From Sediminispirochaeta bajacaliforniensis DSM 16054 (GTDB taxonomy: Bacteria; Spirochaetota; Spirochaetia; DSM-16054; Sediminispirochaetaceae): a stretch of DNA of 64,000 nt. The position numbers and the translations under genes were made by a program. Where the stretch lies: the NCBI RefSeq assembly GCF_000378205.1, contig NZ_KB899414.1, positions 62,001 to 126,000 on the forward strand, read 5' to 3'. The notes beneath the pieces were generated by a model. The model made no database searches. It was not told the origin of the DNA and worked only from the letters and a program-made list of their open reading frames with translations. This document shows positions 17,148 to 56,160 of this stretch, one piece after another; the first letter of the stretch is position 1, and the number at the start of each line of letters is the position of its first letter.

Positions 17148-18344
17148 TCAACCCAAACCGGACTTTCTTCTCGTATAGATATCGTAGAAGACGGCAAGCA
17201 AGAGAACCAAAGCCTTCACGACATACTGCCAATCGGCCCCGATATTCATAAGAGACATACCGTTGTTGATGACACCCATAACCAGACCACCGGTAATGGC
17301 GCCGATGATGGTTCCGATACCGCCGGTAGCGGAAGCACCACCGATAAAGCAGGATGCAATGGCATCAAGCTCAAAGAGATTACCGGCCTGAGGCAGCGCC
17401 GAGTTCATGTATCCGGTAAAAACCAATCCGGAAAGACCGGTAAGGCCGCCCATGATAACATGGACAACGAAAGTAACTTGTTCCGAGTTGATGCCCGAAA
17501 GCTTTGCCGAACGAGCGTTACCACCGACTGCATAGATATATCGTCCGATTACGGTGTTTTTCGTGATAAAAACGAAGACGGCAATGACAATACCAAGCAC
17601 CACGGCAATCATGGGAATTCCCCGGTAATCGGCAAATTTATAAGAGAGAAGACCGATCATGGCGATGATGAAGGCCTGCTTCAAGGCAAAGTAACGCATG
17701 GGAAGAACATCAAATCCCCGTCGCAGCTTTGCCTTTCTTGCATGAAAACTGCTAAAGAGGAAAAGGATAATCAAAACCGCCCCGACAATCAGAGCAAGGG
17801 TATGGAGTCCTCCGATATTAAGTGATTCAATGGTAATCGAACCGGATGTGATACGCTTAAAGCCGTCGTCCCGCAAACTGATCGGGGTCACATTGGTGAT
17901 GATGTAGGTAAGCCCTCGGAACAGAAGCATGCCGGCCAGGGTCACGATAAAAGCAGGGATCCTGACATAGGCCACCCAAAAACCCTGCCAAACCCCTGCC
18001 ACAAGGCCCACTACAATAGTAAGAAAGATGGTAGGAATGATGGGGATTCCGGCATTATAGATCATTGCGCTGATAGCGCCGATAAAGGCACAAAGCGATC
18101 CGACCGAAAGATCTATATTTCCGATGATGATGACCAGCACCATGCCCACCGCAAGGATGAGGATGTAGCTGTTCTGAATGAATATGTTGGTGATATTCCG
18201 CGAGGTAAAGTTCACGCCCCCGGTAAGAATGGAAAATACTACAAAAATCAACCCGAGCATGATAAACATCGAGTAGTTTCTGATATTCTCCTTTGCAAGC
18301 TGCAGGAACGTCACTTGCCCGCTGCCGTTTGTTGCTTTCGCCAT
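17148..18344 (-). CDS. gguB: Multiple-monosaccharide ABC transporter permease (GguB/MmsB, XylH family)
   Basis: A 398-residue inner-membrane permease with roughly ten hydrophobic segments. The segment VGMVLVIIIGNIDLSVGSL is the signature region of XylH/RbsC-like permeases, and the length equals the longer GguB/XylH type rather than RbsC. It follows the ATPase gene by 16 bases and ends in an intrinsic terminator. The paired binding protein is ChvE-like, which favours the multiple-sugar (xylose, glucose, arabinose) importer rather than a xylose-only system. Confidence 0.92.
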   Translation of the reverse strand: MAKATNGSGQVTFLQLAKENIRNYSMFIMLGLIFVVFSILTGGVNFTSRNITNIFIQNSYILILAVGMVLVIIIGNIDLSVGSLCAFIGAISAMIYNAGIPIIPTIFLTIVVGLVAGVWQGFWVAYVRIPAFIVTLAGMLLFRGLTYIITNVTPISLRDDGFKRITSGSITIESLNIGGLHTLALIVGAVLIILFLFSSFHARKAKLRRGFDVLPMRYFALKQAFIIAMIGLLSYKFADYRGIPMIAVVLGIVIAVFVFITKNTVIGRYIYAVGGNARSAKLSGINSEQVTFVVHVIMGGLTGLSGLVFTGYMNSALPQAGNLFELDAIASCFIGGASATGGIGTIIGAITGGLVMGVINNGMSLMNIGADWQYVVKALVLLLAVFYDIYTRRKSGLG

Positions 18345-38053: not shown

Positions 38054-38115
38054 TAAGCATTCAGTTACGACTCTTTATATAGAGTATGCTTCACCGATCT
38101 CAAGGTCAACAGGAG

Positions 38116-39003
38116 CTAAAGAACTACAACCACCCCGGCTTGAATAAGATCATCGACGAGATGACGCTCCTCTATGGGGTTGCCTCGAAGATTTACGAAT
38201 CGCAAGGCAGATAGCTCAAGAAGAGGCGCGATATCCTCAATCTCGTTGTCTTCAAGATCGATAATCTCAAGGGAAGAAATTCCTGCAAGCGGTGTAATAT
38301 CACATATACTATTGCCTGCAAGATAGAGTTCCACCAAATGGTCTGAAGAGCCGAGTTCCCCAACCGATGTGAGATTGTTCCAAGAAGCATCAAGGGCAGA
38401 GATGTTGGTACAGAATTCAAAACCGTCCAGATCATAAAGGCCGTAATGGGAAACATCGAGAGGACCATCGAGATGGGAAAACTCAAAAGGAGAGATCTCA
38501 ATATCGAGATTCCCCACCGAATCAAACTTTACGGCATCCAGAAAAGAGAGTCCCTCAGCATCTTCCCATCGGCTCTCAACATCGGCATCATCGACACATC
38601 CCCATATGCCGTCATCCCATATATGCTCCTCTCTGTAATCCCGGATATCGAAATCGACACGCCGTTTCGGCACCGAGGCGCTTCGACGAAAAGCAAGAAG
38701 AGAAGATAATTTTTCCAGGGCCTGCACATCCTCCCGTTCTATGGCAGATCGAAAATCTTCACATAGATGAGGGAGCTTGTCAGGATGTACCATAGCCACA
38801 ATCCGATAAAAAAGGGTCCTTGCCGGAGCAGAAACCACTTCCGGCCCAAACCCCGCCCGCTCGGCATAGGCTCGCAAAAGCGCGACATCCCCACCGCGGT
38901 GGGCTTCGATGACCAGCCGTGTAAGCTCCTGAAGCCGAGCACTCGTCAATTGTTTTTCAACGGATTCCTTCAATGTTGCTATCGGTGATACAGGGTCAGC
39001 CAT
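38116..39003 (-). CDS. Leucine-rich repeat protein
   Basis: A 295-residue protein. The N-terminal half is helical and unfamiliar (ARLQELTRLVIEAHRGGD, MVHPDKLPHLCEDFRSAIE). From about residue 190 it has consecutive leucine-rich repeats (LDASWNNLTSVGELG, LVELYLAGNSICDITPLAG, LEIIDLEDNEIEDIAPLLE, LRFVNLRGNPIEE) of the SDS22/internalin-like type with about 22 residues each. No signal peptide, so a cytoplasmic binding protein is likely. ATG at 39003 follows GGGAG. It starts divergent from the ArfB-like gene. Confidence 0.82.
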   Translation of the reverse strand: MADPVSPIATLKESVEKQLTSARLQELTRLVIEAHRGGDVALLRAYAERAGFGPEVVSAPARTLFYRIVAMVHPDKLPHLCEDFRSAIEREDVQALEKLSSLLAFRRSASVPKRRVDFDIRDYREEHIWDDGIWGCVDDADVESRWEDAEGLSFLDAVKFDSVGNLDIEISPFEFSHLDGPLDVSHYGLYDLDGFEFCTNISALDASWNNLTSVGELGSSDHLVELYLAGNSICDITPLAGISSLEIIDLEDNEIEDIAPLLELSALRFVNLRGNPIEERHLVDDLIQAGVVVVL

Positions 39004-39096: not shown

Positions 39097-39510
39097 ATGG
39101 AAAATGGAATTCTTGCCGATCTGATTCGTGCGGTGGCAAGTCAACAATTTGCAAGGTCCTCCGGACCGGGAGGCCAAAATGTCAACAAGGTCAATACAAA
39201 GGTCCTGTTGCGTATTCCCCTGGAAAAACTTGGCCTTTCCGAAAGCCAGCTTGCCCGTCTCAGAAGCAAACTTGGTAAGCGAATCACCGGTGACGACGAA
39301 CTTATCATAGAAAGTAGTGGGTCGAGAAGCCAAGAGGCAAACAGGAAAGAAGCCATAGGCCGGGCTGCAAGAATCATATCCGCCGCCATTGTTCCGCCCC
39401 GGCCAAGGCATCCCACCCGGCCGACAAAGGCATCACGACAGCGGCGTTTGGAAAAAAAGCGCGCTTCCTCCCGAAAAAAGCAGCTTCGTCGGCCTCCTGC
39501 GGAGGAATAG
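39097..39510 (+). CDS. arfB: ArfB-like peptidyl-tRNA hydrolase (ribosome rescue)
   Basis: A 137-residue class-I release-factor relative. It carries the catalytic GGQ in SSGPGGQNVNKVNTKVLL, lacks the codon-recognition domain, and ends in a basic tail (SRQRRLEKKRASSRKKQLRR) that in ArfB/YaeJ enters the empty mRNA channel to release stalled ribosomes. Length and layout fit this family rather than RF1/RF2. It stops just before the left repeat of the proposed island. Confidence 0.92.
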   Translation: MENGILADLIRAVASQQFARSSGPGGQNVNKVNTKVLLRIPLEKLGLSESQLARLRSKLGKRITGDDELIIESSGSRSQEANRKEAIGRAARIISAAIVPPRPRHPTRPTKASRQRRLEKKRASSRKKQLRRPPAEE

Positions 39511-39518
39511 GCTCGGCT

Positions 39519-39571
39519 TCAGTGCCCTTCCGACAGAGCCCTAACCTCCGGAAGGGTAGCAGGGAAGCCTT
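39519..39571 (-). pseudogene. Stranded 3' end of a GNAT acetyltransferase gene
   Basis: The minus strand reads GFPATLPEVRALSEGH-stop, matching the C-terminus ATLPEVRALSDE-stop of the intact GNAT gene at 46407-46973. Upstream codons lose similarity within a few residues and the frame runs into the CBM9-like gene. It is therefore a gene-end remnant, not a full gene. It forms the left direct repeat of the proposed island. Confidence 0.68.
39530..39560. repeat. Left direct repeat of the proposed island
   Basis: This 31-base block is identical at 30 positions to 46415-46445, in the same orientation. Its centre (CCTCCGGAAGG) is quasi-palindromic. Patchy similarity runs on for about 14 more bases into the island side (39561-39574). 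Confidence 0.85.
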
Positions 39572-39573
39572 GA

Positions 39574-40224
39574 TTATGGTTGTTCAAACACAACTGTTCC
39601 AAAGGATTCAGGCCTATGGAAATCGGGATGAGCACTTTCAATTTTGAACATACTAAGAAAGTGTGGATCTTTCAATTCGTCCCCACATTTATAGAAGTTG
39701 GCCCTAAACGCTTTTCCTCCTGGTTCATGTAACGGTGTACCCTGAAAAAGTTTCAAAGGGATATCGACCGTGATGGTCCATTCTTTTATGTGCTTTTCTT
39801 CAAAGGGCTCCCTTCCTATAGAAGACAGGGATGTTATAGTTGTTGCTTCTGCCATCGGCCTACTGTCCGCTCTACACGTCCCGTATCCTAAATAGACAGT
39901 CCCGATTGAATTCATTTCTATATTAAAATAGCTGCCGTTGCCAGGATCAATGAAAAATTCAATACAACTATCCAAATGAACGGGATCATTCGCCATCCGG
40001 AATTTCGCCCTGGTCGTCCTTTCGCGAACGGTAAATTTCAGATAGAGGTCATTATCACTCCACCCTGTCCCGACCGTTACCTCAGGCTTATAAGAATACT
40101 CCTTCCAAGACGCAATACAAATAGGTTCAGGCAGGATATTTTCATTCATATATGCATCAATTTCATCGAAATTCCTATTGCATCCAGAGAAATCTAAGTA
40201 TTTGAAAACACTGTTTCTTCCCAT
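39574..40224 (-). CDS. CBM9-like carbohydrate-binding protein
   Basis: A 216-residue protein resembling family 9 carbohydrate-binding modules / cellulose-xylan-binding-domain proteins: WSDNDLYLKFTVRE, DSCIEFFIDPGNGSYFNIEMNSIG (in parts), WTITVDIPLKLF, FRANFYKCGDEL. No signal peptide, which is odd for a wall-glycan binder; cytoplasmic CBM9-like proteins do occur beside oxidoreductases. ATG at 40224 lies just inside the end of the preceding gene, so they are coupled. The 3' end abuts the GNAT remnant. Confidence 0.75.
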   Translation of the reverse strand: MGRNSVFKYLDFSGCNRNFDEIDAYMNENILPEPICIASWKEYSYKPEVTVGTGWSDNDLYLKFTVRERTTRAKFRMANDPVHLDSCIEFFIDPGNGSYFNIEMNSIGTVYLGYGTCRADSRPMAEATTITSLSSIGREPFEEKHIKEWTITVDIPLKLFQGTPLHEPGGKAFRANFYKCGDELKDPHFLSMFKIESAHPDFHRPESFGTVVFEQP

Positions 40225-40231
40225 TATATTT

Positions 40232-41230
40232 CTATACCTCAATTATTTTGTGATCTTTAGCAGAAACATGAATTGCATCAATTATTTTTGTTATGTATTC
40301 ACCATGGATATGGTCGGATTCAGGTTTTTTCCCTTTTCGAATATGGTCTATAAAATCAAATAACATGAGGCTCGGAGCTCCCAGCATCCTGCCATCTACC
40401 GAATATCCAAGGGTATGAAGATTCTTATATTCTCCTCCATACTGCCTGACCATTTGATCCTGCAGGTCGATGTAATAACTATTTTTAGATCCGATAATCT
40501 CTACTTTTAAATCATACACAAGTGGCAGTGTATTTTGTAGTGTCCATGTGCTGTTGAAACTTGCAGCAAAACCTGAATTAAATTCCAAAAGTGCCTTCAT
40601 AGAATCATAGGTTTCAATCCCCATTGTTTTAAGAACCCCCTCTCCAGCCCAACCGTAAATGCGTTTGATTTGATCGCCGGTCAGCCAGCACACCAGGTCA
40701 ATGGCATGGGGAAATAAAAACCAGCCGGGAGATGAGAGCTTCGCCCAAGGTAACATCTCCGTGGGCACAAAAATAGTGTCATTCAGTGTAAAATTAATCG
40801 AAACGACCTTACCAAGGTTACCCAAAGCAATTTCATTTTTCACTGCAACGAAAGGGGCATTCCACCGGTTCTCAAAAGCAACCATACAGAGTACGTCATG
40901 TTCCGTTATGGTTTTTGCTATTAAAGAAGCATCCTCACTAGTGGTTGCCAGAGGTTTTTCTACCAAAATATGACAACCGGCCTCAGCCGCACAGAGAGCG
41001 GGTTCGAGATGGAGGAAGTCGGGTGTTGCAATAATAACGGCATTGAGGTTTGCATCATCAAACATCTTTTTATAATCGTCGTACGTCCTTATTCCCTGCT
41101 GACCGAATTTCCCAAGTTTTCTCTGATCGGCATCGCAGATTGCTGTTAATTCAGCATAAGAGTTTTGCGAGAGTGTATCGGCATACATAGATCCTCTAAT
41201 TCCCGCTCCGATAATTCCAAAATGAATCAT
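40232..41230 (-). CDS. Gfo/Idh/MocA family oxidoreductase
   Basis: A 332-residue NAD(P)-dependent sugar or inositol-type dehydrogenase. The start MIHFGIIGAGIRGSMYADTL holds the nucleotide-binding GxGxxG, and HILVEKPLATTSEDA holds the conserved EKP motif. ATG at 41230 is preceded by AAGGAG; the longer frame upstream is within the permease gene. It sits behind the ABC importer genes and likely acts on the imported sugar or its derivative. Substrate not predictable by eye. Confidence 0.93.
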   Translation of the reverse strand: MIHFGIIGAGIRGSMYADTLSQNSYAELTAICDADQRKLGKFGQQGIRTYDDYKKMFDDANLNAVIIATPDFLHLEPALCAAEAGCHILVEKPLATTSEDASLIAKTITEHDVLCMVAFENRWNAPFVAVKNEIALGNLGKVVSINFTLNDTIFVPTEMLPWAKLSSPGWFLFPHAIDLVCWLTGDQIKRIYGWAGEGVLKTMGIETYDSMKALLEFNSGFAASFNSTWTLQNTLPLVYDLKVEIIGSKNSYYIDLQDQMVRQYGGEYKNLHTLGYSVDGRMLGAPSLMLFDFIDHIRKGKKPESDHIHGEYITKIIDAIHVSAKDHKIIEV

Positions 41231-41244
41231 ATCGATCTCCTTTG

Positions 41245-42075
41245 TTATTGCTTTACGGCGCCAGCCGTCATACCGCTGATGAGGTATTTTTGTAGTACAA
41301 GAAAAAGGAACACAATCGGCAAAGCGATAAAAACAGACCCTGCCATAATAGTTGACCAGTCCGTAGTATACTGGCCTTGGAAACTGGAAATCCCCAAAGA
41401 AAGGGTCCATTTGCTATACGATTTCATGAAAACACTGGCAAAGATGTATTCATTCCAGCCAGTGATAAATGAAAATACAGATGTCACCGCAATTCCCGGG
41501 ATGGTTAAAGGCAAAATAACCCGGGAAAAAACCTGAAACATATTGCAGCCCTCAACGATGGCTGATTCATCAAGAGTACTCGGAATAGCATTAAAAAATC
41601 CTTTTATCATCCATGTACAAAAAGGCACGGCAAAGGTGATATACGCAAGAGCAAGCCCAAACAAAGTATTCAAAAGATGTAATTTTCCCATTAAGAAATA
41701 AAAGGGAATAATCATAACCGACCCCGGCAGAACCTGAGAAATAAGGATGATATAGCCAATAGTCTGTTTGCCTTTAAAAGAATAACGGGACAAAGCATAT
41801 CCACCGGGAAGAGCGATGATCATCGAAAAAATTGTAGTCAGTAAAGAAACCACAAAACTATTCCAAGCCCAGCGGAGAAAGCTAAAATTACTTTGGCCAT
41901 TACTAAACAGAATATTCTTATATCCTGCAACAGAAGGCTCGTTCGGTATAATCCTCGGCGGATAAGCATAGACTTCTCCAGCCGGTTTAAAAGAAGTTGA
42001 TACCATCCAAATAAATGGAAACAAAGTGAAAAGGAGAACTATTATGACACCTATATATATCAATGATCTTTTCAT
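41245..42075 (-). CDS. Carbohydrate ABC transporter permease, MalG type
   Basis: A 276-residue permease with six membrane segments and the EAA loop (STLDESAIVEGCNMFQVFSRVILPLTIP in parts). It starts two bases after the MalF-type permease stop. Together with 42078-42956 and the binding protein it makes a CUT1-type importer. No ATPase gene is present at this locus, so a shared ATPase encoded elsewhere must serve it (inference). Confidence 0.93.
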   Translation of the reverse strand: MKRSLIYIGVIIVLLFTLFPFIWMVSTSFKPAGEVYAYPPRIIPNEPSVAGYKNILFSNGQSNFSFLRWAWNSFVVSLLTTIFSMIIALPGGYALSRYSFKGKQTIGYIILISQVLPGSVMIIPFYFLMGKLHLLNTLFGLALAYITFAVPFCTWMIKGFFNAIPSTLDESAIVEGCNMFQVFSRVILPLTIPGIAVTSVFSFITGWNEYIFASVFMKSYSKWTLSLGISSFQGQYTTDWSTIMAGSVFIALPIVFLFLVLQKYLISGMTAGAVKQ

Positions 42076-42077
42076 AC

Positions 42078-42956
42078 TTATGCACTCTCCAAATCACGCA
42101 TATAAAATACCGTAAAAAGCAATGAGAATAACAAGAGAACAAAACCTCCTGCCGCAGCAACCCCAAAATCAAAATATTTAAACGATGTTTTATACACATA
42201 TATGGTTAAGATTTCGGTTGCCCGAGAAGGTCCCCCCTCCGCCAAAAGATACGCAATAGCGAAATCCTTCATTGTCCAGATAATCAATAAAAGAAATACA
42301 ACCTTTGAAACTGGTTTTAACATGGGAACGGTGATATTTCTGAATTTCTGAAATCCGGAAGCGCCGTCTACCGTGGCCGCTTCATACAGTTCTTTGGGAA
42401 TGCTTTGGAGTCCTGCTAATATCATGATGGCAACAAATGGAAATCCTTTCCAAATATTTACAACCATAGCCGCCGGCAGGGCCGTTCCTGGATCCTCAAG
42501 AAATCGAACATTTTCATGAAGTATATGAAAATTTGTTATGATATAATTGATAATTCCAAATTCCTGATCATACATGAGTATCCATACTAGACATGCAACG
42601 ACTTCCGGTATTGCCCACGGAATTATTATTAATGCCCGTGCAAGTGCCCTTCCTTTAAATTTCAGATCTAAAAGAAAAGCAACAAGATAGCCTAATACAA
42701 ATCGGAAAAATACCGTTACAGTAATATAAATAAATGTTTTTCCCAAAGATGATAGAAACGCTTTATCAGAAAAAAGATGGAAGAAATTCTTCAGTCCGAC
42801 AAAAGTTGTATTCGGTCCTTTTTTAGGAAGATACCAATACTGTATGCTCATCAAAACTGTTTTCGAAATCGGATAAATTAAGAAAACGAGAATGACTATG
42901 ATGAGAAGGAAAAGAAATCCCGTTGGGAATTTATTAAAGATGCGGGAATCACTCAT
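42078..42956 (-). CDS. Carbohydrate ABC transporter permease, MalF type
   Basis: A 292-residue permease with six hydrophobic segments. The EAA motif KELYEAATVDGASGFQKF and following ITVPMLKPV identify the CUT1 family. It is separated from the binding-protein gene upstream by 69 bases containing a strong stem-loop. Partner: MalG-type permease immediately downstream. Confidence 0.93.
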   Translation of the reverse strand: MSDSRIFNKFPTGFLFLLIIVILVFLIYPISKTVLMSIQYWYLPKKGPNTTFVGLKNFFHLFSDKAFLSSLGKTFIYITVTVFFRFVLGYLVAFLLDLKFKGRALARALIIIPWAIPEVVACLVWILMYDQEFGIINYIITNFHILHENVRFLEDPGTALPAAMVVNIWKGFPFVAIMILAGLQSIPKELYEAATVDGASGFQKFRNITVPMLKPVSKVVFLLLIIWTMKDFAIAYLLAEGGPSRATEILTIYVYKTSFKYFDFGVAAAGGFVLLLFSLLFTVFYMRDLESA

Positions 42957-42986
42957 GAACGCTCCTTCTAAACCTGGTGCTGTAAG

Positions 42987-43017
42987 GGCTACAGGATGCT
43001 TTTAGCATCCTGTAGCC
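42987..43017 (-). other. Perfect 14-bp intercistronic hairpin after the binding-protein gene
   Basis: Arms 42987-43000 and 43004-43017 (GGCTACAGGATGCT and its complement) with a three-base loop. No T-run follows on the minus strand. As in the chvE locus, it probably stabilises the upstream binding-protein mRNA or partly attenuates the permease genes. Confidence 0.8.
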
Positions 43018-43025
43018 GATAATAT

Positions 43026-44345
43026 TTAGCGCTCCATTACCACCTGCATCTCTTTCTTGGCATCTTCCAAAATAGCCGCCGCATCTGCATCTGCTGATGA
43101 AAAAATACGCTGAGTTGCTTCTATCATGATTTGCTGCAATTCCCCGATCTGAGGAATGGATGGATCACTGATCAGAGGATCATAGTAATTGGCGATAAAA
43201 TCATAAAACTGATAAGCAAGCTTATGTGTAGCTTTATAATTCGACTCGGTTACATATGATTTGCTGTTGGGAATCATACCGCATTCGGCAATGATCTCCT
43301 GAGCCTCTTTCGATGCCATCCATTTAAGAAAATCCCAAGCTTCTTCCTGGTGTTTGCAATTTTTGCTGATGACCGTGATAAGGGGATATTGAGAAGGATT
43401 GGGCCTATATGTCTTACCTTCATATTCCACAGCAGGCTGTGGAATGAGACCTACATCCTCAAGAAGAGCAGGATCACGTGATTCGGTCATGCCAATAAAC
43501 CAAGGTCCATCAAGATTAAATGCGATCTTCCCATTCCAGAATAATTCACGCACATCTTTTTTATCTTTAAGAACCCTGGCCGATTTATCCTGAAGGATCA
43601 TATTTTGCCACCATTCTGCCGCCCAGATATTGGCCGGATCAGCTACATTTATGCGATCCGGCGTGAAAGGTCCTTTTTCCCCGGGAAAATAGAGGCCTCC
43701 TGAAATAACCCTGGCTATAAATCGTGCCCATTCGGAAACGACAAAGCTATGCGAAGAAACCAAAACTCCAAATCCTGATACATTGTCGTTTGTAAGTTTC
43801 AAGCTTGCGTTCCTAAAATCCTCCATACTTTTAATCGATGAAGGATCCACACCTGCCCTTTCTAATATTGATTTTCGATAAAACAGCCCAGTTGTTCCCC
43901 AAGCATAATTGGAAAACGCAACATAATCACCGTCATATTTACACTCGTCCTGTCCGACCAAATCTTTCTCATAGGATGTCCCTACGATTTTATCGTTCAG
44001 ATTTAGAAATGTTCCCTCCGGTCGAAGTGCATGGTATTGTGCAATATTCGAAGTATACATCTGAATAATGTCAGCCTCATTATTACTCAGTATCTCCGTA
44101 GTCATATTGTCCCAAAAACTGCTCCACCCCGCTCCATAAACCTCTATCTCAACATTCGGGTTTTGTGCATTGTAGGTGCTAATCAATTTGTCGATTACAG
44201 CCTTATGCGGAGCTTCAACATAAATTGAAGTAGCGAAGGATAGCTTTATCTTCCCTCCATCATCATCCTGATTACCGCTTGCAAACAGCATAGTTGATAC
44301 CGACAACAAAACGATAATCAATGTTCCTACAAGTGTTTTTTTCAT
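43026..44345 (-). CDS. Carbohydrate ABC transporter substrate-binding protein (family 1)
   Basis: A 439-residue binding protein with a Sec signal (KKTLVGTLIIVLLSVSTMLFASG). Family traits include LISTYNAQNPNVEIEVYG, DIIQMYTSN and FNLDGPWFIGMTE. It lacks a clear lipobox Cys, so it is probably soluble in the periplasm. The ATG at 44345 is behind AAGGAGG; longer upstream starts run into the promoter region. It heads the importer operon and is divergent from the two-component genes. Confidence 0.92.
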   Translation of the reverse strand: MKKTLVGTLIIVLLSVSTMLFASGNQDDDGGKIKLSFATSIYVEAPHKAVIDKLISTYNAQNPNVEIEVYGAGWSSFWDNMTTEILSNNEADIIQMYTSNIAQYHALRPEGTFLNLNDKIVGTSYEKDLVGQDECKYDGDYVAFSNYAWGTTGLFYRKSILERAGVDPSSIKSMEDFRNASLKLTNDNVSGFGVLVSSHSFVVSEWARFIARVISGGLYFPGEKGPFTPDRINVADPANIWAAEWWQNMILQDKSARVLKDKKDVRELFWNGKIAFNLDGPWFIGMTESRDPALLEDVGLIPQPAVEYEGKTYRPNPSQYPLITVISKNCKHQEEAWDFLKWMASKEAQEIIAECGMIPNSKSYVTESNYKATHKLAYQFYDFIANYYDPLISDPSIPQIGELQQIMIEATQRIFSSADADAAAILEDAKKEMQVVMER

Positions 44346-44480
44346 TGCGACCTCCTTTTTAGCGATTTTGTATAGCATAGTACGATCAGTCATCATCATT
44401 AACAATAAACAAAAGTACTAAAAAGACAGGACATTAATACTAATTTCATTTTCAAGGATATGGATGAGGATCTCTTTCTT

Positions 44481-44508
44481 TTGTAAGAAAATAGCTCTGT
44501 GGTATAAT
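44481..44508 (+). promoter_or_regulatory. Promoter of the LiaS-like/NarL-like two-component operon
   Basis: TTGTAA (44481-44486) and TATAAT (44503-44508) are 16 bases apart. The predicted start lies only one to three bases before the ATG at 44517, so the kinase message would be leaderless. Confidence 0.6.
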
Positions 44509-44516
44509 ACTGAAAG

Positions 44517-45782
44517 ATGAAACATGCTAATAATTATGTTGATGCCAAAATCTCCCTAACCAGTATTACTCTTATCATTCATATCGTTTGCATTTTTCAA
44601 TACCATCAAACATCGAAATTCTCAGGAATGCCGTTATTTTATATACAGAGCGTACTTGTTCTTCTTTTTATTGATGCCGTCATAGCAATAATCAACATCA
44701 TAAAGCTTTTAACCATACCCAATCTTGCTCTGTTTTATCTCCGGGGTTTTATCATTCTCATCATCTCTTATACCATACAAGATGATTTTCTACTGGAAAT
44801 TCTTCTATACATAGACTATTCCATTCCTACCCGTTACCGAAACAACTGGAAATACAGCATCATTTATTTATCCGTGTATTTATGCCTTTTAGCCTTACTT
44901 CAGTTCCCCAATCCCCTATTTGGTACAGCTTTTCTTTCATGGGATTTTAAGGTTCCATTGTTTTGGGACTACTCAATGTTCTTGCTTCTGACTATTCTCT
45001 TCACAACATGCCTGTTTCTCATGATATATTATCGTGAACAGTTGATTCGGCTCCACAGAGAACTATCTTTGGAAAAGTCAATTAAATCAAAACTACTGCG
45101 GCTGAATCAGCGATTTCAAGATTATGCCTATACCGCTGAAAATAACGCAAAACGAAAAGAACGCAGAGCAATCACCCAGAAAATTCACGACTCCACGGGC
45201 TATAGCTTTACTAATATTATCTCGTTGATGGACGTTGCGATAAGTCTCGGAGATGAAGATTTTGATCGTCTTACCGAGATCCATATGACAGCAAAAAAAG
45301 AAGCAAAAAATGGATTGAAGCAGACTCGAAAAATACTTACATATACCCGAAATCAGGAACAGCCCAATAACGCCGAGGATGAAGCCAGCATTCTTCATTT
45401 AATACAAACTTTTAGAAAGGTCACAGATATCGAAACACACTTGGAGATAATAAATTCCAAGCAATCCTATGGAAAGGTGACAGATGCTATCCTTTTTTCT
45501 ATCGTTCGTGAAGCCTTGACCAATATTTTGCAGCATAGTAATGCAGATAAGGTCTTCATCTACTTCGGTGAAGTAAGAGAGGATATTTTACTCTACATCA
45601 GAGATAATGGCAGAAATTATGGAGAAACAAGCTTTGGTATCGGACTGACTGGAGTCCAAGAACGAGTAGCGAACGTAGGGGGACGGGTAACATTTCAATA
45701 CTCTATTGACGGGTTCAGCATCAAGGCGGAGATTCCCATACATAAAGGGGGGAAAAAATATGATCAGGGTACTTATAGCTGA
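44517..45782 (+). CDS. Membrane sensor histidine kinase, HisKA_3 (LiaS/NarX) type
   Basis: A 421-residue kinase. The N-terminal 180 residues are six to seven hydrophobic segments. A coiled region (LIRLHRELSLEKSIKSKLLRL in parts) leads to the HisKA_3 H-box ITQKIHDSTGYSF (His about 224) and the ATPase domain with LQHSNADK, IRDNG and FGIGLTGVQERV. No extracytoplasmic sensor domain is visible, so membrane-segment sensing is likely. No ribosome site precedes the ATG. It overlaps the regulator gene by 23 bases. Confidence 0.88.
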   Translation: MKHANNYVDAKISLTSITLIIHIVCIFQYHQTSKFSGMPLFYIQSVLVLLFIDAVIAIINIIKLLTIPNLALFYLRGFIILIISYTIQDDFLLEILLYIDYSIPTRYRNNWKYSIIYLSVYLCLLALLQFPNPLFGTAFLSWDFKVPLFWDYSMFLLLTILFTTCLFLMIYYREQLIRLHRELSLEKSIKSKLLRLNQRFQDYAYTAENNAKRKERRAITQKIHDSTGYSFTNIISLMDVAISLGDEDFDRLTEIHMTAKKEAKNGLKQTRKILTYTRNQEQPNNAEDEASILHLIQTFRKVTDIETHLEIINSKQSYGKVTDAILFSIVREALTNILQHSNADKVFIYFGEVREDILLYIRDNGRNYGETSFGIGLTGVQERVANVGGRVTFQYSIDGFSIKAEIPIHKGGKKYDQGTYS

Positions 45783-46404
45783 CGATCAGGAACTTTTTGC
45801 GGAAAGTCTAAAAACTCTTTTAACAACATATACTGATGATATTGAAATCGTTGGAATCGCAGAAAATGGTCAAAAAGCTATTTCTTGGGTGGAGAACACT
45901 ACCATTGACATCATCCTCATGGATGTGAAAATGCCGGAACTTGACGGGGTTGAAGCCACAAAAATCATTCTGCAATCACATAAGTCAATCAAAGTCGTTA
46001 TGCTTTCTACCTTCAAAGAAATAGATTTTGTCAAAAAGGCATTACGCTATGGAGCTCTTGGGTATCTGCTGAAAGATATCTCGCCTACCGAATTAATTGC
46101 ATCAATACGAGCCGCTTATAACGGAGCAACACAAATTTCCCCTGCAATAGCGGCCAATATAGTAGAATCAAAATATACCGACAAAGACAATAATGGAACA
46201 TCCATAGAATGGTACAAAGATCTTACCAGACGGGAAAAGGAAATATTTAAACTGATCTCCCGGGGATATGATAATACCGAAATCGCCGATGAACTTTGTA
46301 TCGCGTACCAGACAGTACGAAATTATGTAAGTTCAATTATATCAAAGCTCAGTATTAAGAACCGCTATGAGATAATTAAACTGGCTAACAGGATGTTGAA
46401 GTAG
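45760..46404 (+). CDS. NarL/LuxR-type response regulator
   Basis: A 214-residue regulator: receiver domain (MIRVLIADDQ, phosphoacceptor Asp55 in IILMDVKMP, KALRYGALGYLLKD) and a C-terminal LuxR HTH (LTRREKEIFKLISRGYDNTEIADEL in parts). ATG at 45760 follows a GGGGGG stretch and lies within the kinase end. The likely target is the adjacent divergent importer operon (44345 and on). It ends two bases before the convergent GNAT gene. Confidence 0.93.
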   Translation: MIRVLIADDQELFAESLKTLLTTYTDDIEIVGIAENGQKAISWVENTTIDIILMDVKMPELDGVEATKIILQSHKSIKVVMLSTFKEIDFVKKALRYGALGYLLKDISPTELIASIRAAYNGATQISPAIAANIVESKYTDKDNNGTSIEWYKDLTRREKEIFKLISRGYDNTEIADELCIAYQTVRNYVSSIISKLSIKNRYEIIKLANRMLK

Positions 46405-46406
46405 TA

Positions 46407-46973
46407 TCACTCATCCGACAGCGCCCTAACCTCCGGAAGGGTAGCGGTAAAGTCCCGATCGAGCATCTCCATGTAGATCTCGTCGAAATAGCGGCCACCG
46501 ATGCAAACACATTCGCTTCTCCTTCCAATTTCGCGAAAGCCAAGCTTTCGGTAGCAACGCTGTGCAACTTCGTTAAAGGAGCGGACCCTAAGCATAACAT
46601 TGTGCAGGTTAAGGAGGTGGAAGGCATACGATAGAAGCAGACCGATGGCCTCTCCCCCAAAGCCCTTTCCCCGCTGCGATTTTTCTCCAATGAAGATTCC
46701 CATTTCACCTCGGCTTTGGATTAGATCGACATCCATCAGGCCGCAGCTGCCGATCAACTGATCATTTTCCTTAAGAACGATACTGAAGTTGTAGCCATCC
46801 TGTAACTTCTGAAGCATATCACGCTCTTTATCCCGGGATATGATGCCTGCGGCAAGCTGCAGGTTCAGTGTAGTTTCGAGATCATTCACCCATGAGGTAT
46901 AGAGCTCAAGGCCATCATCGGAAACAGGAGAAAGGTAAAGACGTTCTCCCACAAGCTTTTGATAATAGGACAC
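46407..46973 (-). CDS. GNAT family N-acetyltransferase
   Basis: A 188-residue acetyltransferase of the RimJ/RimL-like type. LVGERLYLSPVSDDGLELYTSW starts the fold, the acetyl-CoA loop is EKSQRGKGFGGEAIGLLL, and NLHNVMLRVRSFNEVAQRCYRKLGFREIGR (in parts) is the typical final motif. It starts at GTG behind GGGAGG. Its last codons (46407-46459) are duplicated as a remnant at 39519-39571, so this gene end seems to be the insertion target. Substrate unknown. Confidence 0.92.
   Translation of the reverse strand: MSYYQKLVGERLYLSPVSDDGLELYTSWVNDLETTLNLQLAAGIISRDKERDMLQKLQDGYNFSIVLKENDQLIGSCGLMDVDLIQSRGEMGIFIGEKSQRGKGFGGEAIGLLLSYAFHLLNLHNVMLRVRSFNEVAQRCYRKLGFREIGRRSECVCIGGRYFDEIYMEMLDRDFTATLPEVRALSDE
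46415..46445. repeat. Right direct repeat of the proposed island (inside the GNAT gene end)
   Basis: Identical to 39530-39560 at 30 of 31 positions and in the same orientation. It codes for the last residues of the acetyltransferase, which stays intact on this side. Confidence 0.85.
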
Positions 46974-49339: not shown

Positions 49340-49903
49340 TCAACAAGAGCGGATAAAGAGGTGCAGCCCGTTCCTCAACTGATCCCAATCCGCCGCCCCG
49401 CCCTCGACAGCGGTAAGAGAGAGAAAACCGAAGAAAAGCTGCATCGCGGCATTATATCCGGCTTCTCCGAAGATTTTCCGAAAAAGGCCCCGATAGCGAT
49501 CGATAACGCTGTTTGCGGACCGGCCGGCACCATCTTCCCTGGCGAAATCGACCAATAGTCCCAGCTCATCAAGATAATCGGGAAGAAGCTTCTTTCCATA
49601 GGAAATCAGCATCTCGATAAGGGCCTGAGTATCGGTTTCTGTCACGGCAGAAGAAGAGACCAAGGCAAGCTCTCGTTCAAGCATGTCGGTCAAGAGCTCC
49701 CCACAGAAATGAAAAAGTTCCTCTTTTCCTGCAAAATAGTGATAAAAACCGCTTTTTGAGATCCCCAATTCCGCGACAAGTGTTCTTAAACTTAAAGAGC
49801 GATAGCCATAACGGCGAAAAAGCGCAAGCGCCTTTGTCGCCAGGGCTGTCCGAACCTCATCTTTATTCACTATTTTCGGCACCACCCCTCCTTTTTCGTC
49901 CAT
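49340..49903 (-). CDS. TetR/AcrR family transcriptional regulator
   Basis: A 187-residue regulator with an N-terminal TetR HTH (ALALFRRYGYRSLSLRTLVAELGISKSGFYHYFAGKEELF in parts) and a variable helical ligand domain. The ATG at 49903 is the natural start because it gives the HTH near the N-terminus; the frame continues upstream only antisense to the next gene. It is divergent from the SDR gene, with a palindromic operator between them, so it probably represses both genes. Confidence 0.9.
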   Translation of the reverse strand: MDEKGGVVPKIVNKDEVRTALATKALALFRRYGYRSLSLRTLVAELGISKSGFYHYFAGKEELFHFCGELLTDMLERELALVSSSAVTETDTQALIEMLISYGKKLLPDYLDELGLLVDFAREDGAGRSANSVIDRYRGLFRKIFGEAGYNAAMQLFFGFLSLTAVEGGAADWDQLRNGLHLFIRSC

Positions 49904-49948
49904 TTGGACTATATCACTTGCAAAACAAGGATCCAAGTAGTATATTTT

Positions 49949-49970
49949 ATTTAGACCGTTTGGACTAAAT
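49949..49970. promoter_or_regulatory. Probable TetR operator
   Basis: ATTTAGACC (49949-49957) and GGACTAAAT (49962-49970) form an inverted repeat with one mismatch around four bases, just upstream of the SDR gene ribosome site. A related TTTGGACTA copy lies at about 49904-49912 next to the regulator start. Confidence 0.68.
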
Positions 49971-49981
49971 AAGGAGATTAC

Positions 49982-50866
49982 ATGAGAATTCTTATAGCCG
50001 GAGCCAGCGGATATCTTGGCAGACATGTAAGCGAAGAAGCGAAGAAAGTGGGTTTCACGGTCAGGGTGCTTCTGAGAACAGAAAGCCAGGCCGCATCGTT
50101 TTCTTCCCTTGCCGATGAAATCATCGTTGGTGAGGCGACAAAACCAGCCGATCTCGAAGGGCTCGCGGAAAACTGCGATATTGTCTTCAGCAGCCTCGGC
50201 ATAACCCGACAAAAGGACGGGTTAACCTATGAACAGGTCGACTATCAGGCAAACGCGAACCTTTTGGCAGAGGCTGAGCGATCAAAATGTGCTCTTTTTT
50301 GCTATGTTTCGGTCTTCAAAGGACAAGATCTGCGTTGGGTAAAACTGGTGAAGGCAAAGGAGCACTTCGTCGACCTTCTCGCCCAATCGACAATTCCCTC
50401 TGCGATAATCAGACCGACGGGATTCTTCTCCGACATGGCCGATTTTTTTAACATGGCCCAGGCCGGCCGGGTTTTTCTTTTCGGAAAAGGCACGGGGCGT
50501 TTCAATCCGATATCGGGCAAAGATCTTGCTGTGGAGATCATTCGCAGCTGCAGGGCTCAGATAGACCGTGGGGAAAGGTTCAGCGAACTGGAGATTGGAG
50601 GTCCCGATACGCTCAGTCTGAACCAGATTGCGTGCCTTGCCCTAAAAGCCTCGGGGAAACCGGAAAAGATCCTACATTTGCCCGATGTGCTTCGCCGCAT
50701 AACCCTGGCCGTATTACCCCGCATCACCCCGTTATCGGTTTACGGACCGCTACAATTTTTTCTTGCCGTAATGGGTATTTCAGATCTTGCCGCCCCCGAA
50801 TACGGAAGCGACCATCTGTCGGATTTTTATCGGCAACTTGCAGAAGGAGCGAATGAAAAACAGTAA
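49982..50866 (+). CDS. NAD(P)-binding SDR/NmrA-like protein
   Basis: A 294-residue atypical short-chain dehydrogenase. MRILIAGASGYLGRHV holds the GxxGxxG nucleotide site; VFSSLGITRQK and IPSAIIRPTGFFSDM follow the NmrA/YwnB-like pattern, without the classic YxxxK pair. AAGGAG precedes the ATG. It is divergent from, and likely controlled by, the TetR gene. Such proteins act as reductases or redox sensors; the substrate is unknown. Confidence 0.87.
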   Translation: MRILIAGASGYLGRHVSEEAKKVGFTVRVLLRTESQAASFSSLADEIIVGEATKPADLEGLAENCDIVFSSLGITRQKDGLTYEQVDYQANANLLAEAERSKCALFCYVSVFKGQDLRWVKLVKAKEHFVDLLAQSTIPSAIIRPTGFFSDMADFFNMAQAGRVFLFGKGTGRFNPISGKDLAVEIIRSCRAQIDRGERFSELEIGGPDTLSLNQIACLALKASGKPEKILHLPDVLRRITLAVLPRITPLSVYGPLQFFLAVMGISDLAAPEYGSDHLSDFYRQLAEGANEKQ

Positions 50867-51794: not shown

Positions 51795-51873
51795 ATCATC
51801 CTCCGTAGTTAGAGATATCGTGCAAGTATATAATAAAGTGTTTTTTTTTGCAGCATGGAAGCAGCCATAGAAG

Positions 51874-51892
51874 ATATGCAAACGTTTTCTCA
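51874..51892. promoter_or_regulatory. Possible second LacI-type operator
   Basis: ATGCAAACGTTTTCTCAT is a quasi-palindrome around AACGTT with the central CG typical of LacI-family sites. It lies about 97 bases upstream of the main operator (centre to centre), a distance that would allow looping, and between the nucleotidyltransferase and importer genes. Confidence 0.5.
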
Positions 51893-51940
51893 TAAAACAC
51901 CCATAATACAATGTAAAAATGTGCAAAAAACTATTTTTTC

Positions 51941-51969
51941 TTGACTTATACCCATATAAGCGTGATAAT
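51941..51969 (+). promoter_or_regulatory. Promoter of the LacI-controlled sugar importer operon
   Basis: TTGACT (51941-51946) and GATAAT (51964-51969) with an ideal 17-base spacer. The operator begins at the last -10 base, so repressor binding would block transcription directly. Confidence 0.83.
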
Positions 51970-51990
51970 TTGTGCAAGCGTTTGCGCAAA
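51969..51990. promoter_or_regulatory. LacI-family operator
   Basis: The 22-base palindrome with arms TTTGTGCAAGC and GTTTGCGCAAA matches its reverse complement at 18 of 22 positions, with a central CG. It overlaps the promoter start region of the operon that ends with a LacI gene (55150-56160). Confidence 0.8.
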
Positions 51991-52023
51991 TACATCAAAA
52001 ACGTATCATAGGAGGAGACACGA

Positions 52024-53301
52024 ATGAAAAAACTTCCACCATTGCTTTTGCTTATTGCCATTATTTCAACCTTTGCATCATCTTGCGGGAACCATCCACA
52101 AAAGGAAAAAGAAGGTAGCGAAGCAGGCCCTTCCAAAGCCCCAATCACCCTTGCACAAGGTAAACCGGAAATCGATGCCCAGCTCAAAGCTTTTGCAGCA
52201 ACCTGGTCGGAAAAAAGTGGTGTACCAGTTACCATTAAGTCCATCGGGGGAACAAGCGGAGGTCTCGGACCACAGTTGAAAGCCGACTATGCAGCAGGCG
52301 ATATGCCGGACATCTTTGCCATTAACGGTCTTGAGGATTACAAAGAGTGGTCGGGAATTGCTCTTGATCTTTCAAATGAGCAATGGGCCAAAGATACCTC
52401 TGTAGCTTTTACCTACGACGGAAAGATTTACGGTTTCCCCGTGGCTGTGGAAGGCTGGGGAATGGCCTATAATGCGGATATGCTCGCTAAGGCGGGAATT
52501 GATCCCGCAGGATTGGTCAATTACGATGGCTATAAAAAGGCCTTTGAGAAATTGAATTCGATGAAAGAAGAACTGGGGATCGATTCAGTTGTATCAATGG
52601 CAGCAGGGCCGGAAATGGGTTGGGTGACAGCCCATCATAATTTCAACTCCCTCCTTTCAAATGGACTTCCCTACGGCGACCTTTCGGTTGTCAACGACCT
52701 TCTTGCCGGCAAGGTAGACGAAACCCGACTAAAAGAATATGCCGACTGGGTGGAATTGCTTTTTACCTATGCAGACAAATCGGTCCTTACTACTGGCAAC
52801 TACGATGCACAAGTCGGTGCCTTTGCTGCAAAAAAAGCCGTCTTCCTTCATCAGGGCAATTGGGTCGATCCCAACATGGCAGCCGCAAAGGCTGATTTTC
52901 CCATGGCCTTTGCTCCCCACGGCTCCATGAAAAAGACAACGGAGGGAATTTTCGTTTCCGCCCCCTCCTTTTATCTTATCAACAAAGAGTCAAAGAATGT
53001 GGAAGCGGCAAAGCAGTTCCTGAATGATCTGGTGTATACCGAAGAAGGACAAAACTACATGGTAAACGAAGCAGGAATGATCCCTGCCTTCAGAAATATC
53101 AAGCTGAGCCCCGCCGGACAGCTTTCAAAATCAGTTCAGAAATGGGCAGGAGAGGGAAAAGTCTATAGTTGGGACCAGTACTACTTTTCCGGCGATTTTC
53201 GGGATCAGACCCTTGCGCCTATCTACAACCAATTCGCCAACGGCAACATTGACAAAGAAGGCTTCATCAAATTGATGAAAAAAGCCTTCGAAAATCGATA
53301 A
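52024..53301 (+). CDS. Carbohydrate ABC transporter substrate-binding lipoprotein (family 1)
   Basis: A 425-residue binding protein with a lipoprotein signal (LLLLIAIISTFASSC, Cys about 21). Family segments include AGDMPDIFAINGLEDYKEW, GKIYGFPVAVEGWGMAYNADML (in parts) and VFLHQGNWVDPNM. A strong GGAGGAG precedes the ATG. It heads the operon binding protein - two permeases - LacI under a clear promoter/operator. Likely an oligosaccharide binder; no adjacent glycosidase hints at the sugar. Confidence 0.93.
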   Translation: MKKLPPLLLLIAIISTFASSCGNHPQKEKEGSEAGPSKAPITLAQGKPEIDAQLKAFAATWSEKSGVPVTIKSIGGTSGGLGPQLKADYAAGDMPDIFAINGLEDYKEWSGIALDLSNEQWAKDTSVAFTYDGKIYGFPVAVEGWGMAYNADMLAKAGIDPAGLVNYDGYKKAFEKLNSMKEELGIDSVVSMAAGPEMGWVTAHHNFNSLLSNGLPYGDLSVVNDLLAGKVDETRLKEYADWVELLFTYADKSVLTTGNYDAQVGAFAAKKAVFLHQGNWVDPNMAAAKADFPMAFAPHGSMKKTTEGIFVSAPSFYLINKESKNVEAAKQFLNDLVYTEEGQNYMVNEAGMIPAFRNIKLSPAGQLSKSVQKWAGEGKVYSWDQYYFSGDFRDQTLAPIYNQFANGNIDKEGFIKLMKKAFENR

Positions 53302-53320
53302 GCTGACGAAGAGATGAAAA

Positions 53321-53350
53321 AGTCCGGCTCTCCACCTTTGGGGCCGGACT
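53321..53350 (+). other. Intercistronic hairpin after the binding-protein gene
   Basis: AGTCCGGC (53321-53328) pairs with GCCGGACT (53343-53350) around a 14-base loop that can add C-C/G-G pairs. No T-run follows. It lies 20 bases after the binding-protein stop and before the permease, as in the other two importers of the window. Confidence 0.72.
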
Positions 53351-53370
53351 CTCTTCTCAAGGATACTCAC

Positions 53371-54291
53371 ATGAAAAGAAAACAAGAAACACAACTTATT
53401 TTCTGGATTTTCCTCTGCCCTGTACTGATCGCCTTTCTTTTGGTCATTGTTATTCCCTTCTTTATGGGGGTATTTTATTCCTTCACAAACTGGAGCTCAT
53501 CCGCCAGGGCGGGAGTAAGTCTTCAATGTATTGGGCTTTCCAATTTTACCGAAAGTTTCGAAGACCCGGCCTTCCTTTATTCGTTTCTGCTTACATTGGT
53601 CTACACCGTGCTTAACATGATTGCGATAAATCTTACAGCATTCATCCTTGCAATTATAGTTACAAGCAAACTCAGGCTGCGTAATCTCTACCGGGTTGGT
53701 TTTTTCATTCCGAATCTGATAGGTGGTCTGATTTTAGGTTATGTCTGGCAATTTATTTTCAACAATGCCGTTCCCGCCATTGGGGAATCGCTGCCCTTTT
53801 TATCAGCCCTTGCCGATCCGGCCAATCTTATATTAAGCAAACGGAATTCTGCCCTCATGGCCCTGGTTGTAGTAGGAACGTGGCAGTATGCAGGGTATAT
53901 AATGATGATCTATGTCGCTGCTTTAGAGGGGGTCCCGGAAGAGCTACATGAAGCAGCTACCATCGATGGAGCCAACACATTCCAAAGAATCCGGCTTATT
54001 ACCATCCCGATGATTGCACAGGCCTTTACCATCACCATGTTCCTCACCCTGGTTCAGTCCTTCAAACAATTCGATGTAAATGTCTCTCTCACAGCAGGAG
54101 GACCGTCGGCTATGTTCATGGGGCAACCTATCTTCGGGACAGAACTACTGGCGTTGAATATTTACCAGACAGCGTTCACAGCAAACAACCTTGCCGAGGG
54201 ACAAGCACGGGCTGTTGTTTTCTTCATTGTTTTGATTATCATTTCCCTTGCCCAAGTCTCCGCCAATAAACGCAAGGAGATAGAACTATGA
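53371..54291 (+). CDS. Carbohydrate ABC transporter permease, MalF type
   Basis: A 306-residue permease with six membrane segments and EAA motif EELHEAATIDGANTFQRIRL followed by ITIPMI. The ATG at 53371 (KRKQETQLIFW) is preferred; the frame further upstream runs through the hairpin. It overlaps the next permease gene by four bases. No ATPase gene at the locus. Confidence 0.93.
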   Translation: MKRKQETQLIFWIFLCPVLIAFLLVIVIPFFMGVFYSFTNWSSSARAGVSLQCIGLSNFTESFEDPAFLYSFLLTLVYTVLNMIAINLTAFILAIIVTSKLRLRNLYRVGFFIPNLIGGLILGYVWQFIFNNAVPAIGESLPFLSALADPANLILSKRNSALMALVVVGTWQYAGYIMMIYVAALEGVPEELHEAATIDGANTFQRIRLITIPMIAQAFTITMFLTLVQSFKQFDVNVSLTAGGPSAMFMGQPIFGTELLALNIYQTAFTANNLAEGQARAVVFFIVLIIISLAQVSANKRKEIEL

Positions 54292-55145
54292 ACAAGAAAA
54301 GCAATCAAAACTATATCCTGGAATGTATTGCAGCACTCCTTTTCCTTGCCTTTATTTTCCCCTTCTTTATTGTACTTATCAATTCGGCAAAAGGATCTTT
54401 CGAGGTCACCCAACAGCCTATGAAGTTACCGGACGATTGGTCCATGATCCTCAAAAATATGGTATCGATCTGGACAAATCCAAATATTCAATATCAGAAC
54501 TCATTTATCTCTTCCTCGCTCATCACAGCAATCTCTTTAGTCGTCATCGTTATGTTTTCCAGTCAGGCAGCATGGGTGCTGGTACGGACAAAAACACGGA
54601 TAAGCAGGTTCTTTTTTTTCATTTTCGTCGCAGCCATGGTCATCCCTTTCCAGATCGTCATGTTCCCTCTTCTCTCATGGTTTCGTATGATCTATACGGT
54701 AACAGGAATACGTTTATTACGAACGTATCAGGGAATGATCCTTGCCTATCTTGGTTTCGGCCTTTCCCTCTCGATTTTTATGTATCATGGATTCATAAAA
54801 AGCATTCCCCTAGAATTAGAAGAAGCAGCAACTATCGACGGCTGCTCAAAAGCAAGAATTTTTTTCACCATAATATCTCCCATTCTCAAGCCGATTCATG
54901 CTACAGTAGTGGTGTTGAACGGTATCTGGATCTGGAATGACTATCTGCTTCCCCTTCTGATACTTGGCAAGGGTAATAGAGTACAAACAATTCCCCTTGC
55001 TGTTGCAAACTTTGCGGGGGCCTATGTCAAACAGTGGGACCTGATTCTAACAGCCATTCTTATGGCAATGATTCCGATCATCATATTTTTCCTTCTTGCC
55101 CAAAAACATATTATTCGGGGCATGGTAGCAGGCTCAATTAAATAG
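54288..55145 (+). CDS. Carbohydrate ABC transporter permease, MalG type
   Basis: A 285-residue permease with six membrane segments and the EAA loop PLELEEAATIDGCSKARIFF. It overlaps its partner permease (ATGA) and is followed after four bases by the LacI gene. Completes a CUT1-type membrane core. Confidence 0.93.
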   Translation: MNKKSNQNYILECIAALLFLAFIFPFFIVLINSAKGSFEVTQQPMKLPDDWSMILKNMVSIWTNPNIQYQNSFISSSLITAISLVVIVMFSSQAAWVLVRTKTRISRFFFFIFVAAMVIPFQIVMFPLLSWFRMIYTVTGIRLLRTYQGMILAYLGFGLSLSIFMYHGFIKSIPLELEEAATIDGCSKARIFFTIISPILKPIHATVVVLNGIWIWNDYLLPLLILGKGNRVQTIPLAVANFAGAYVKQWDLILTAILMAMIPIIIFFLLAQKHIIRGMVAGSIK

Positions 55146-55149
55146 CATA

Positions 55150-56160
55150 ATGGACAGCACTATTAGCGATGTGGCAAAATTAGCGAAGGTATCTCCCTCT
55201 ACGGTCAGCAGGGTCATTCATAACAGCCCAAGAATCAGCGATCAAACAAAAAATCGGGTAAGAGAGGCTATGAAAAGCCTTGGGTACCACCCCAATGCAG
55301 CCGCAAGAAGTCTAGTACGAGGTGAGACAAAGACTATAGGTCTCATTATCCCAAATTCCGAGAATGATCTTTTCTTTCGCCCCTTCTTTATCATGGCGAT
55401 GCGCGGAATCAGCATAGAAGCCCAGAAACAGGGGTATAATATCATGTATGCATTCTCAACCAGCCAGCCGGAAGAGGTTGAGTTCCTTCAGCGTTTTGTC
55501 CAGAGGAGTCTTGTTGACGGGATTATTCTGATGGCGGCAAGACAACACGACAGTTGCATGGAGTACCTCGAAAGTCGGGAGGTTCCTTACGCTGTCATCG
55601 GTCATCCAGGACATGAATATCCCAATGCAATGTGGGTCGATAACGATAATTTCAAGGCAATGTACGATGTAACTGCGACACTTTTCGGCCTAGGACTTCG
55701 CCGTATCGCTTTTCTCGGAGGCGTCCCTGAAATGAGCGTAACGAGGGACCGATTAAGGGGATATAAAGAGGCGTTTACCACCCATGAAATCGATATCGAT
55801 CAGGAACTGATACACACCTCAAGTGGTTTTCAGGAGGAAGATGGATATCAAGGAGCAAAGGAATTGCTAAAAAAAGCCGCCCCTGAAGCTTTTGCGGCTG
55901 CAGATGATCTCCTTGCTTTGGGAGCTTTGCAATACATGGAAGAAGAAAATATTAGGCTGCCAATTATAGGATTCAACAATACAATCAAAGGCTCGATACA
56001 GCACCCGACCCTAAGCTCGGTAGACATCCTCCCCGATCAACTTGGAATACAGGCGGCCGAGCTTCTCATTAAGAGGCTGAAAAATGAGCCGCTATCAACA
56101 AACTTCCGGATAGTGGACACATGCCTTATTGAACGGGAAACAACGCTTTTTTTCCGCTGA
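55150..56160 (+). CDS. LacI-family transcriptional regulator
   Basis: A 336-residue repressor. The N-terminal HTH with hinge reads STISDVAKLAKVSPSTVSRV, then NAAARSLVRGETKTIGLIIP into a type-1 ligand-binding core. No ribosome site is obvious, so translation may be coupled to the permease stop four bases upstream. The operator at 51969-51990 is the likely binding site, giving feedback on its own operon; the inducer is presumably the imported sugar. Confidence 0.93.
   Translation: MDSTISDVAKLAKVSPSTVSRVIHNSPRISDQTKNRVREAMKSLGYHPNAAARSLVRGETKTIGLIIPNSENDLFFRPFFIMAMRGISIEAQKQGYNIMYAFSTSQPEEVEFLQRFVQRSLVDGIILMAARQHDSCMEYLESREVPYAVIGHPGHEYPNAMWVDNDNFKAMYDVTATLFGLGLRRIAFLGGVPEMSVTRDRLRGYKEAFTTHEIDIDQELIHTSSGFQEEDGYQGAKELLKKAAPEAFAAADDLLALGALQYMEEENIRLPIIGFNNTIKGSIQHPTLSSVDILPDQLGIQAAELLIKRLKNEPLSTNFRIVDTCLIERETTLFFR

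Follow-up and report, generated by a model that had tools for sequence, protein, structure and literature searches.

An AT-rich carbohydrate-uptake cluster between two copies of a GNAT gene end in Sediminispirochaeta

Elements moved by tyrosine recombinases are bounded by repeats of 8–60 bp, and the 3' ends of protein genes are common targets for them (PMC5704250). Decayed elements that have no integrase but have kept both attL and attR are known as CIMEs (PMC5704250). The segment described here is like a CIME in that direct repeats flank its cargo, the 3' end of an intact gene is completed by one of them, and mobility genes are absent. It differs in the lack of a recombinase relic, the lack of space for arm-type sites and a core palindrome that is not conserved. 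It is also old, being present in both species compared, and is known only as filled sites, neither empty nor circular. The cargo itself recalls the CUT1 (Maltose/UgpABE-type) importer operons, with which it shares a binding protein, two permeases, a sugar oxidoreductase, a kinase and a NarL/LuxR-type regulator. Unlike those operons, the cluster contains no gene for the ATPase of its importer; furthermore, its oxidoreductase, permeases and binding protein all fall below the curated equivalog cut-offs.

The window referred to below is the whole stretch of DNA that was analysed, 64,000 nucleotides on contig 9 of the 4.57-Mb draft genome of S. bajacaliforniensis. This is the closest named species to S. 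smaragdinae (PMC3035371), and the genome of S. smaragdinae SEBR 4228T (formerly Spirochaeta; 4,653,970 bp; PMC3035371) is the one with which the locus is compared.

The AT-rich segment and its genes

The segment has a GC content of 0.396, against 0.495 +/- 0.027 across 280 genomic windows of equal length, none of which is lower. Gene by gene, the GC content is 0.37–0.42 within the cluster and 0.47–0.53 in its neighbours, and both limits of the AT-rich segment coincide with the copies of a direct repeat. A preliminary description of this DNA had spoken of an AT-rich stretch of about 6.9 kb, which the computed base composition bears out. Atypical base composition is one of the marks by which genomic islands are recognized, and the segment carries it, lying below all 280 windows. 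The features of the locus, in window coordinates, are as follows.

39097–39510, plus strand: arfB, the peptidyl-tRNA hydrolase of ribosome rescue, intact, left neighbour of the segment (NCBIfam ArfB above cut-off; Pfam RF-1)
39525–39556, no strand: hairpin CCCTTCCG/CGGAAGGG around the left repeat copy, between the convergent arfB and CBM9 genes (sequence; folding)
39529–39560, minus strand: left repeat copy, a GNAT gene tail without gene body, reading ATLPEVRALSEGH and a stop (sequence, repeat search, tblastn)
39561–46413, no strand: AT-rich DNA enclosed by the two repeat copies, 6,853 bp, GC 0.396
39574–40242, minus strand: CBM9_2 carbohydrate-binding protein, complete, with 13 bp between its stop codon and the repeat (PF16011, E 1e-50, profile 7–199 of 199)
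40232–41230, minus strand: Gfo/Idh/MocA oxidoreductase (PF01408, E 1e-24; below the cut-off of every NCBIfam equivalog)
41245–42075, minus strand: sugar ABC permease, MalG-like (PF00528; best NCBIfam match MalG, below cut-off)
42078–42956, minus strand: sugar ABC permease, UgpA/MalF-like (PF00528; NCBIfam UgpA/MalF, below cut-off)
43026–44345, minus strand: sugar-binding protein of an ABC importer (PF01547, E 4e-31)
44517–45782, plus strand: membrane histidine kinase, transcribed divergently to the importer operon (HisKA_3 and HATPase_c, each scoring slightly under the Pfam gathering threshold; best NCBIfam matches are sensor kinases)
45760–46404, plus strand: LuxR/NarL-type response regulator, complete, with its stop codon 9 bp from the repeat (PF00072 and PF00196)
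46414–46445, minus strand: right repeat copy, the codons ATLPEVRALS of the GNAT gene (sequence, repeat search)
46407–46973, minus strand: intact GNAT acetyltransferase, 188 aa, whose 3' end is the right repeat copy (PF13302, E 2e-20)

The minus-strand operon is complete and comprises the binding protein, the two permeases, the Gfo/Idh/MocA oxidoreductase and the CBM9 protein. Judging from the gene order, the kinase and the regulator most likely respond to the substrate, or to an effect of it, by turning on the importer.

Patchy distribution, a further mark of genomic islands, is also seen. At E <= 1e-60 the binding protein occurs in only two of 148 Spirochaetia genomes, both of them Sediminispirochaeta, and by the same measure the cluster was not found in the other 146 sampled. 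Relatives of the CBM9 protein elsewhere in the class are about 30–42% identical and stand without this cluster. In a search for a donor, the matches of the oxidoreductase among plasmid proteins were distant, at most 33% identity.

The repeat copies in two species

The direct repeat, first described as 31 bases with 30 identical, measures 32 bp with 31 identical (39529–39560 and 46414–46445), and it can be extended to 39529–39574 and 46414–46459, which are 85% alike across 46 bp. That description took the right copy for the end of an intact GNAT gene and the left copy for an in-frame tail lacking the body of the gene, and both statements hold. On its minus strand the left copy is in the same reading frame as the GNAT tail, and tblastn of the GNAT protein against the segment returns the tail only (E 1e-4), with no GNAT body found beside it. 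Both copies have the same orientation and each lies between convergent genes. The pair is the sole exact direct repeat of at least 20 bp at more than 500 bp distance in the window, for copies up to 20 kb apart. A search for the core elsewhere, which had been proposed as a check, gave only these two places in the whole of its own genome at up to three mismatches, and the S. smaragdinae genome likewise has two copies only. A dispersed repeat was therefore rejected for both species. On the scale used to score end repeats the pair reaches 29, whereas the maximum among 4000 random junctions drawn from the same genomes is 11, so the end repeat of the segment is longer than chance would give.

The hairpin that surrounds the left copy folds in both species, with modest z-scores of -1.0 to -2.1. 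In S. smaragdinae its loop is changed and its stem unchanged. Lying between convergent genes, it may be a bidirectional terminator, although it lacks a T run. An RNA structure common to both copies was also considered and rejected, as a clear hairpin is present in the left copy only.

The whole cluster is found in S. smaragdinae, in the same gene order and with both repeat copies at the identical spacing of 6,885 bp, and any insertion must therefore predate the split of the two species. DNA identity is ~95% through flanks and segment, and the GNAT proteins share 94% aa identity. Synonymous divergence between the species amounts to 0.19 per site for the segment, as against 0.14 for its flanks, and dN is well below dS in the cluster genes. 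As the divergence of segment and flanks is similar and dN is low relative to dS, the cluster was inherited from the common ancestor and kept. Recent acquisition was rejected, as divergence from the sister species resembles that of the flanks. A fully conserved gene order across the genus, cluster included, had been named in advance as something that would tell against insertion. Such an order is indeed seen in the two genomes, and its effect is to move the insertion back in time; it neither proves nor excludes one.

An empty site, with arfB followed directly by the GNAT gene, was not found in the genus, where the two genomes compared are both filled. Outside the genus no such site can be read because arfB and the GNAT gene lie on different contigs or in unrelated surroundings. 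In one genome of the same family, for example, the GNAT gene (64% identical) and arfB (44%) are on separate contigs, and these carry none of the neighbour genes of the window. The GNAT tail of the outgroup differs (VGSIAVERMS) and points to neither copy as the original. It is conceivable that the cluster is native here, or was brought by a larger rearrangement, and that the left copy arose separately, either as a small duplication of the GNAT tail or as what remains of a second, tandem GNAT gene; the repeat would then mark no insertion. The two Sediminispirochaeta genomes share the whole gene order, which is matched nowhere outside the genus, so that no comparison ties the arrival of the cluster to the repeat, and loci with two or three tandem GNAT genes are indeed carried by Paenibacillus. 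However, the repeat coincides with the limits of the AT-rich segment at both ends and no other GNAT sequence is left at the left copy, and we consider such an origin unlikely.

Two other parts of the window were noted during the comparison with S. smaragdinae. At 49340–50866, a TetR gene (in fragments relative to S. smaragdinae) and the neighbouring NAD-dependent gene have a dS of 0.45; for the sigma factor and DUF3795 genes nearby it is only 0.01–0.04. Positions 51809–56125 hold another sugar ABC operon with a LacI-type regulator (functions read from translations), present in the window only; its place in S. smaragdinae is taken by about 30 bp.

The two repeat copies have changed together. 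Both copies in the window read GAGGTTAGGGC and both copies in S. smaragdinae read GAGCTTAAGGC (on the minus strand, ...CCGGAGGTTAGGGC... and ...CCGGAGCTTAAGGC..., respectively), so that the copies agree within each species and differ between species at two identical positions. In the body of the GNAT gene 24 of 528 bases differ between the species. In simulations, two identical parallel changes arise by chance with a probability of 0.0004 at 5% divergence, 0.004 when the observed rates are used and 0.024 with generous ones. The copies have probably exchanged sequence since the split, although the case consists of two columns from a single pair of genomes and was noticed post hoc. The likely cause is gene conversion after the split, or else excision followed by re-insertion, and further columns at the edge of the repeat agree with the GNAT end having overwritten the left copy on the branch to S. 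smaragdinae. Gene conversion across only ~30 bp would be unusual.

Another way to keep the copies alike would be selection, if both served as one and the same kind of binding site or RNA signal, with no recombination between them. Their common orientation, their position between convergent genes and their likeness within each species agree with this. However, each of the coordinated changes replaces an amino acid of the GNAT protein (V to L and R to K), and in the left hairpin both affect the loop and leave the stem as it was; this hairpin is not shared by the right copy, and the repeat has no match in Rfam. We judge this explanation very improbable.

Integrases and the traffic of short-repeat segments

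Gene and domain annotation of the segment reveals no integrase, transposase or recombinase relic, in agreement with the earlier remark that no integrase is left inside. The quasi-palindromic centre of the repeat, on the other hand, had been read as a possible recombinase core, and this reading fails. The palindrome in the window has seven of nine pairs, and 6–8% of shuffles are as good; in both sister copies it is lost, the best there having five of eight pairs, which about 80% of shuffles equal. A conserved core with inverted arms, as expected of a recombinase site, is not seen. The cluster genes stop 13 bp (CBM9) and 9 bp (regulator) from the repeats, which leaves no intergenic room for arm-type sites. 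Several tyrosine recombinases are encoded elsewhere in each of the two genomes, and it is possible that an integrase acted in trans.

These observations bear directly on whether the segment could be a true CIME. In that case an element would have integrated site-specifically at the 3' end of the GNAT gene and left the repeats as its attL and attR, the integrase would have been lost and the cores would have been homogenised by later excision and re-integration. Direct repeats do stand at both ends and one of them restores the 3' end of the target gene; moreover, 32 bp is within the range for such elements, which commonly target the 3' ends of protein genes (PMC5704250), and within the core the concerted changes are near one another. 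However, besides the absence of a recombinase or its relic, the want of space for arm-type sites and a palindrome within chance, the core occurs nowhere else in either genome and has no exact-pattern match in the viral contigs of IMG/VR. The segment holds no relic of integration or transfer genes, and these searches for the core gave no relative that has them at this site. An origin as a CIME thus seems improbable.

Short repeats at the ends of segments are frequent between these two genomes. Comparison of 859 kb on three contigs with S. smaragdinae gave 22 clean indels of at least 120 bp, and in eight of the 22 the end repeats exceed the 99% level of random junctions, where 0.2 would be expected. 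In three of these eight the end repeats are 14, 20 and 31 bp long. Some of the 22 are accounted for by one IS and by MITEs with target duplications of their own. Two cases are of particular relevance.

L120:11410-12681: lipoprotein-like gene, 339 aa, S. smaragdinae only, with 31-bp end repeats
L038:3113-4472: SDR gene, 1,360 bp, at the 3' end of an LRR gene, S. smaragdinae only, with a 14-bp near-repeat of the LRR gene end

In the first, the repeats are copies of a terminator hairpin, 30 identical, around a single-gene segment of 1,272 bp with no integrase inside, and the empty site in the window genome is at L112:13326-13362. The empty site of the SDR gene is at about 38114–38127 of the window, ~1.4 kb from the left repeat copy. 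As cargo with a 31-bp repeat and no integrase exists elsewhere, a repeat of this size needs no integrase, and the base rate of repeat-ended indels makes cargo bounded by duplicated gene ends ordinary traffic between both genomes. The segment studied here resembles these indels, which have end repeats of 4–31 bp between the same two genomes, the 31-bp case being at a gene end and of similar size. It differs in that the cluster is filled in both genomes, the empty state being seen only at other loci, and in that its repeat is slightly longer than those of all 22.

Several mobile or repeated sequences also came to light. Two MITE-like inserts of ~150 bp in S. smaragdinae (L122:15153-15302 and L123:14697-14853) have short target duplications and related inverted ends, of which the best example is TAGTGTTCGGAATCCTGGTGG. 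An IS3-like insertion in S. smaragdinae with two overlapping ORFs (L121:11194-12843; G001:C1:4371194-4372843), assigned to its family by ORF layout only, has a 5-bp target duplication, CGTTC, and sits within a gene whose counterpart in the window genome is intact. A GC-rich exact direct repeat of 117 bp, with copies 7.06 kb apart (L101:10835-10951 and 17895-18011) and parts also in L103, is apparently a dispersed repeat family of its genome.

Origin of the cluster

The reading to which we lean, by a modest preference, is that the GNAT gene long ago received at its 3' end an insertion that duplicated the gene end, used no integrase of its own and left copies that later exchanged sequence. The AT-rich carbohydrate-uptake cluster would have entered in the ancestor of both Sediminispirochaeta species. 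The process, presumably recombination at short or gene-end homology and not the work of an integrase encoded by an element, would have duplicated the last 32–46 bp of the GNAT gene. One copy would then close the GNAT gene, and the other, left beside arfB, may have become part of the terminator-like hairpin. The divergent two-component system probably controls the carbohydrate-uptake genes. After the split there would have been one or more exchanges of sequence between the copies, probably by gene conversion, and most simply with the GNAT gene as donor and the left copy as recipient on the branch to S. smaragdinae.

The preliminary description had likewise proposed insertion at a gene 3' end. 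Its proposal is favoured by the foreign-like composition, the duplicated gene end, the restriction of the cluster to the genus and the intact GNAT gene, and it loses the argument from a recombinase core. Insertion is nevertheless not proven: a partial duplication beside a native cluster would also fit, both genomes of the genus being filled. A broader proposal, that the genus repeatedly captures cassettes at gene 3' ends with duplication of 14–32 bp of the tail, by a route with no element-encoded integrase and with tails that still recombine, as the 32-bp pair would do here by converting over 6.9 kb, seems to us quite doubtful.

The segment is an ordinary kind of island and fits the class of repeat-bounded indels. 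It illustrates that the footprint of an island at a gene end can resemble the att sites of an integrase and yet match ordinary segments bounded by short repeats. The mildly surprising property of this otherwise ordinary island is that 32-bp copies separated by 6.9 kb have apparently exchanged sequence. Should further strains confirm the coordinated changes, they would exemplify conversion between repeats of very small size, and such conversion would predict occasional loss of the sugar cluster.
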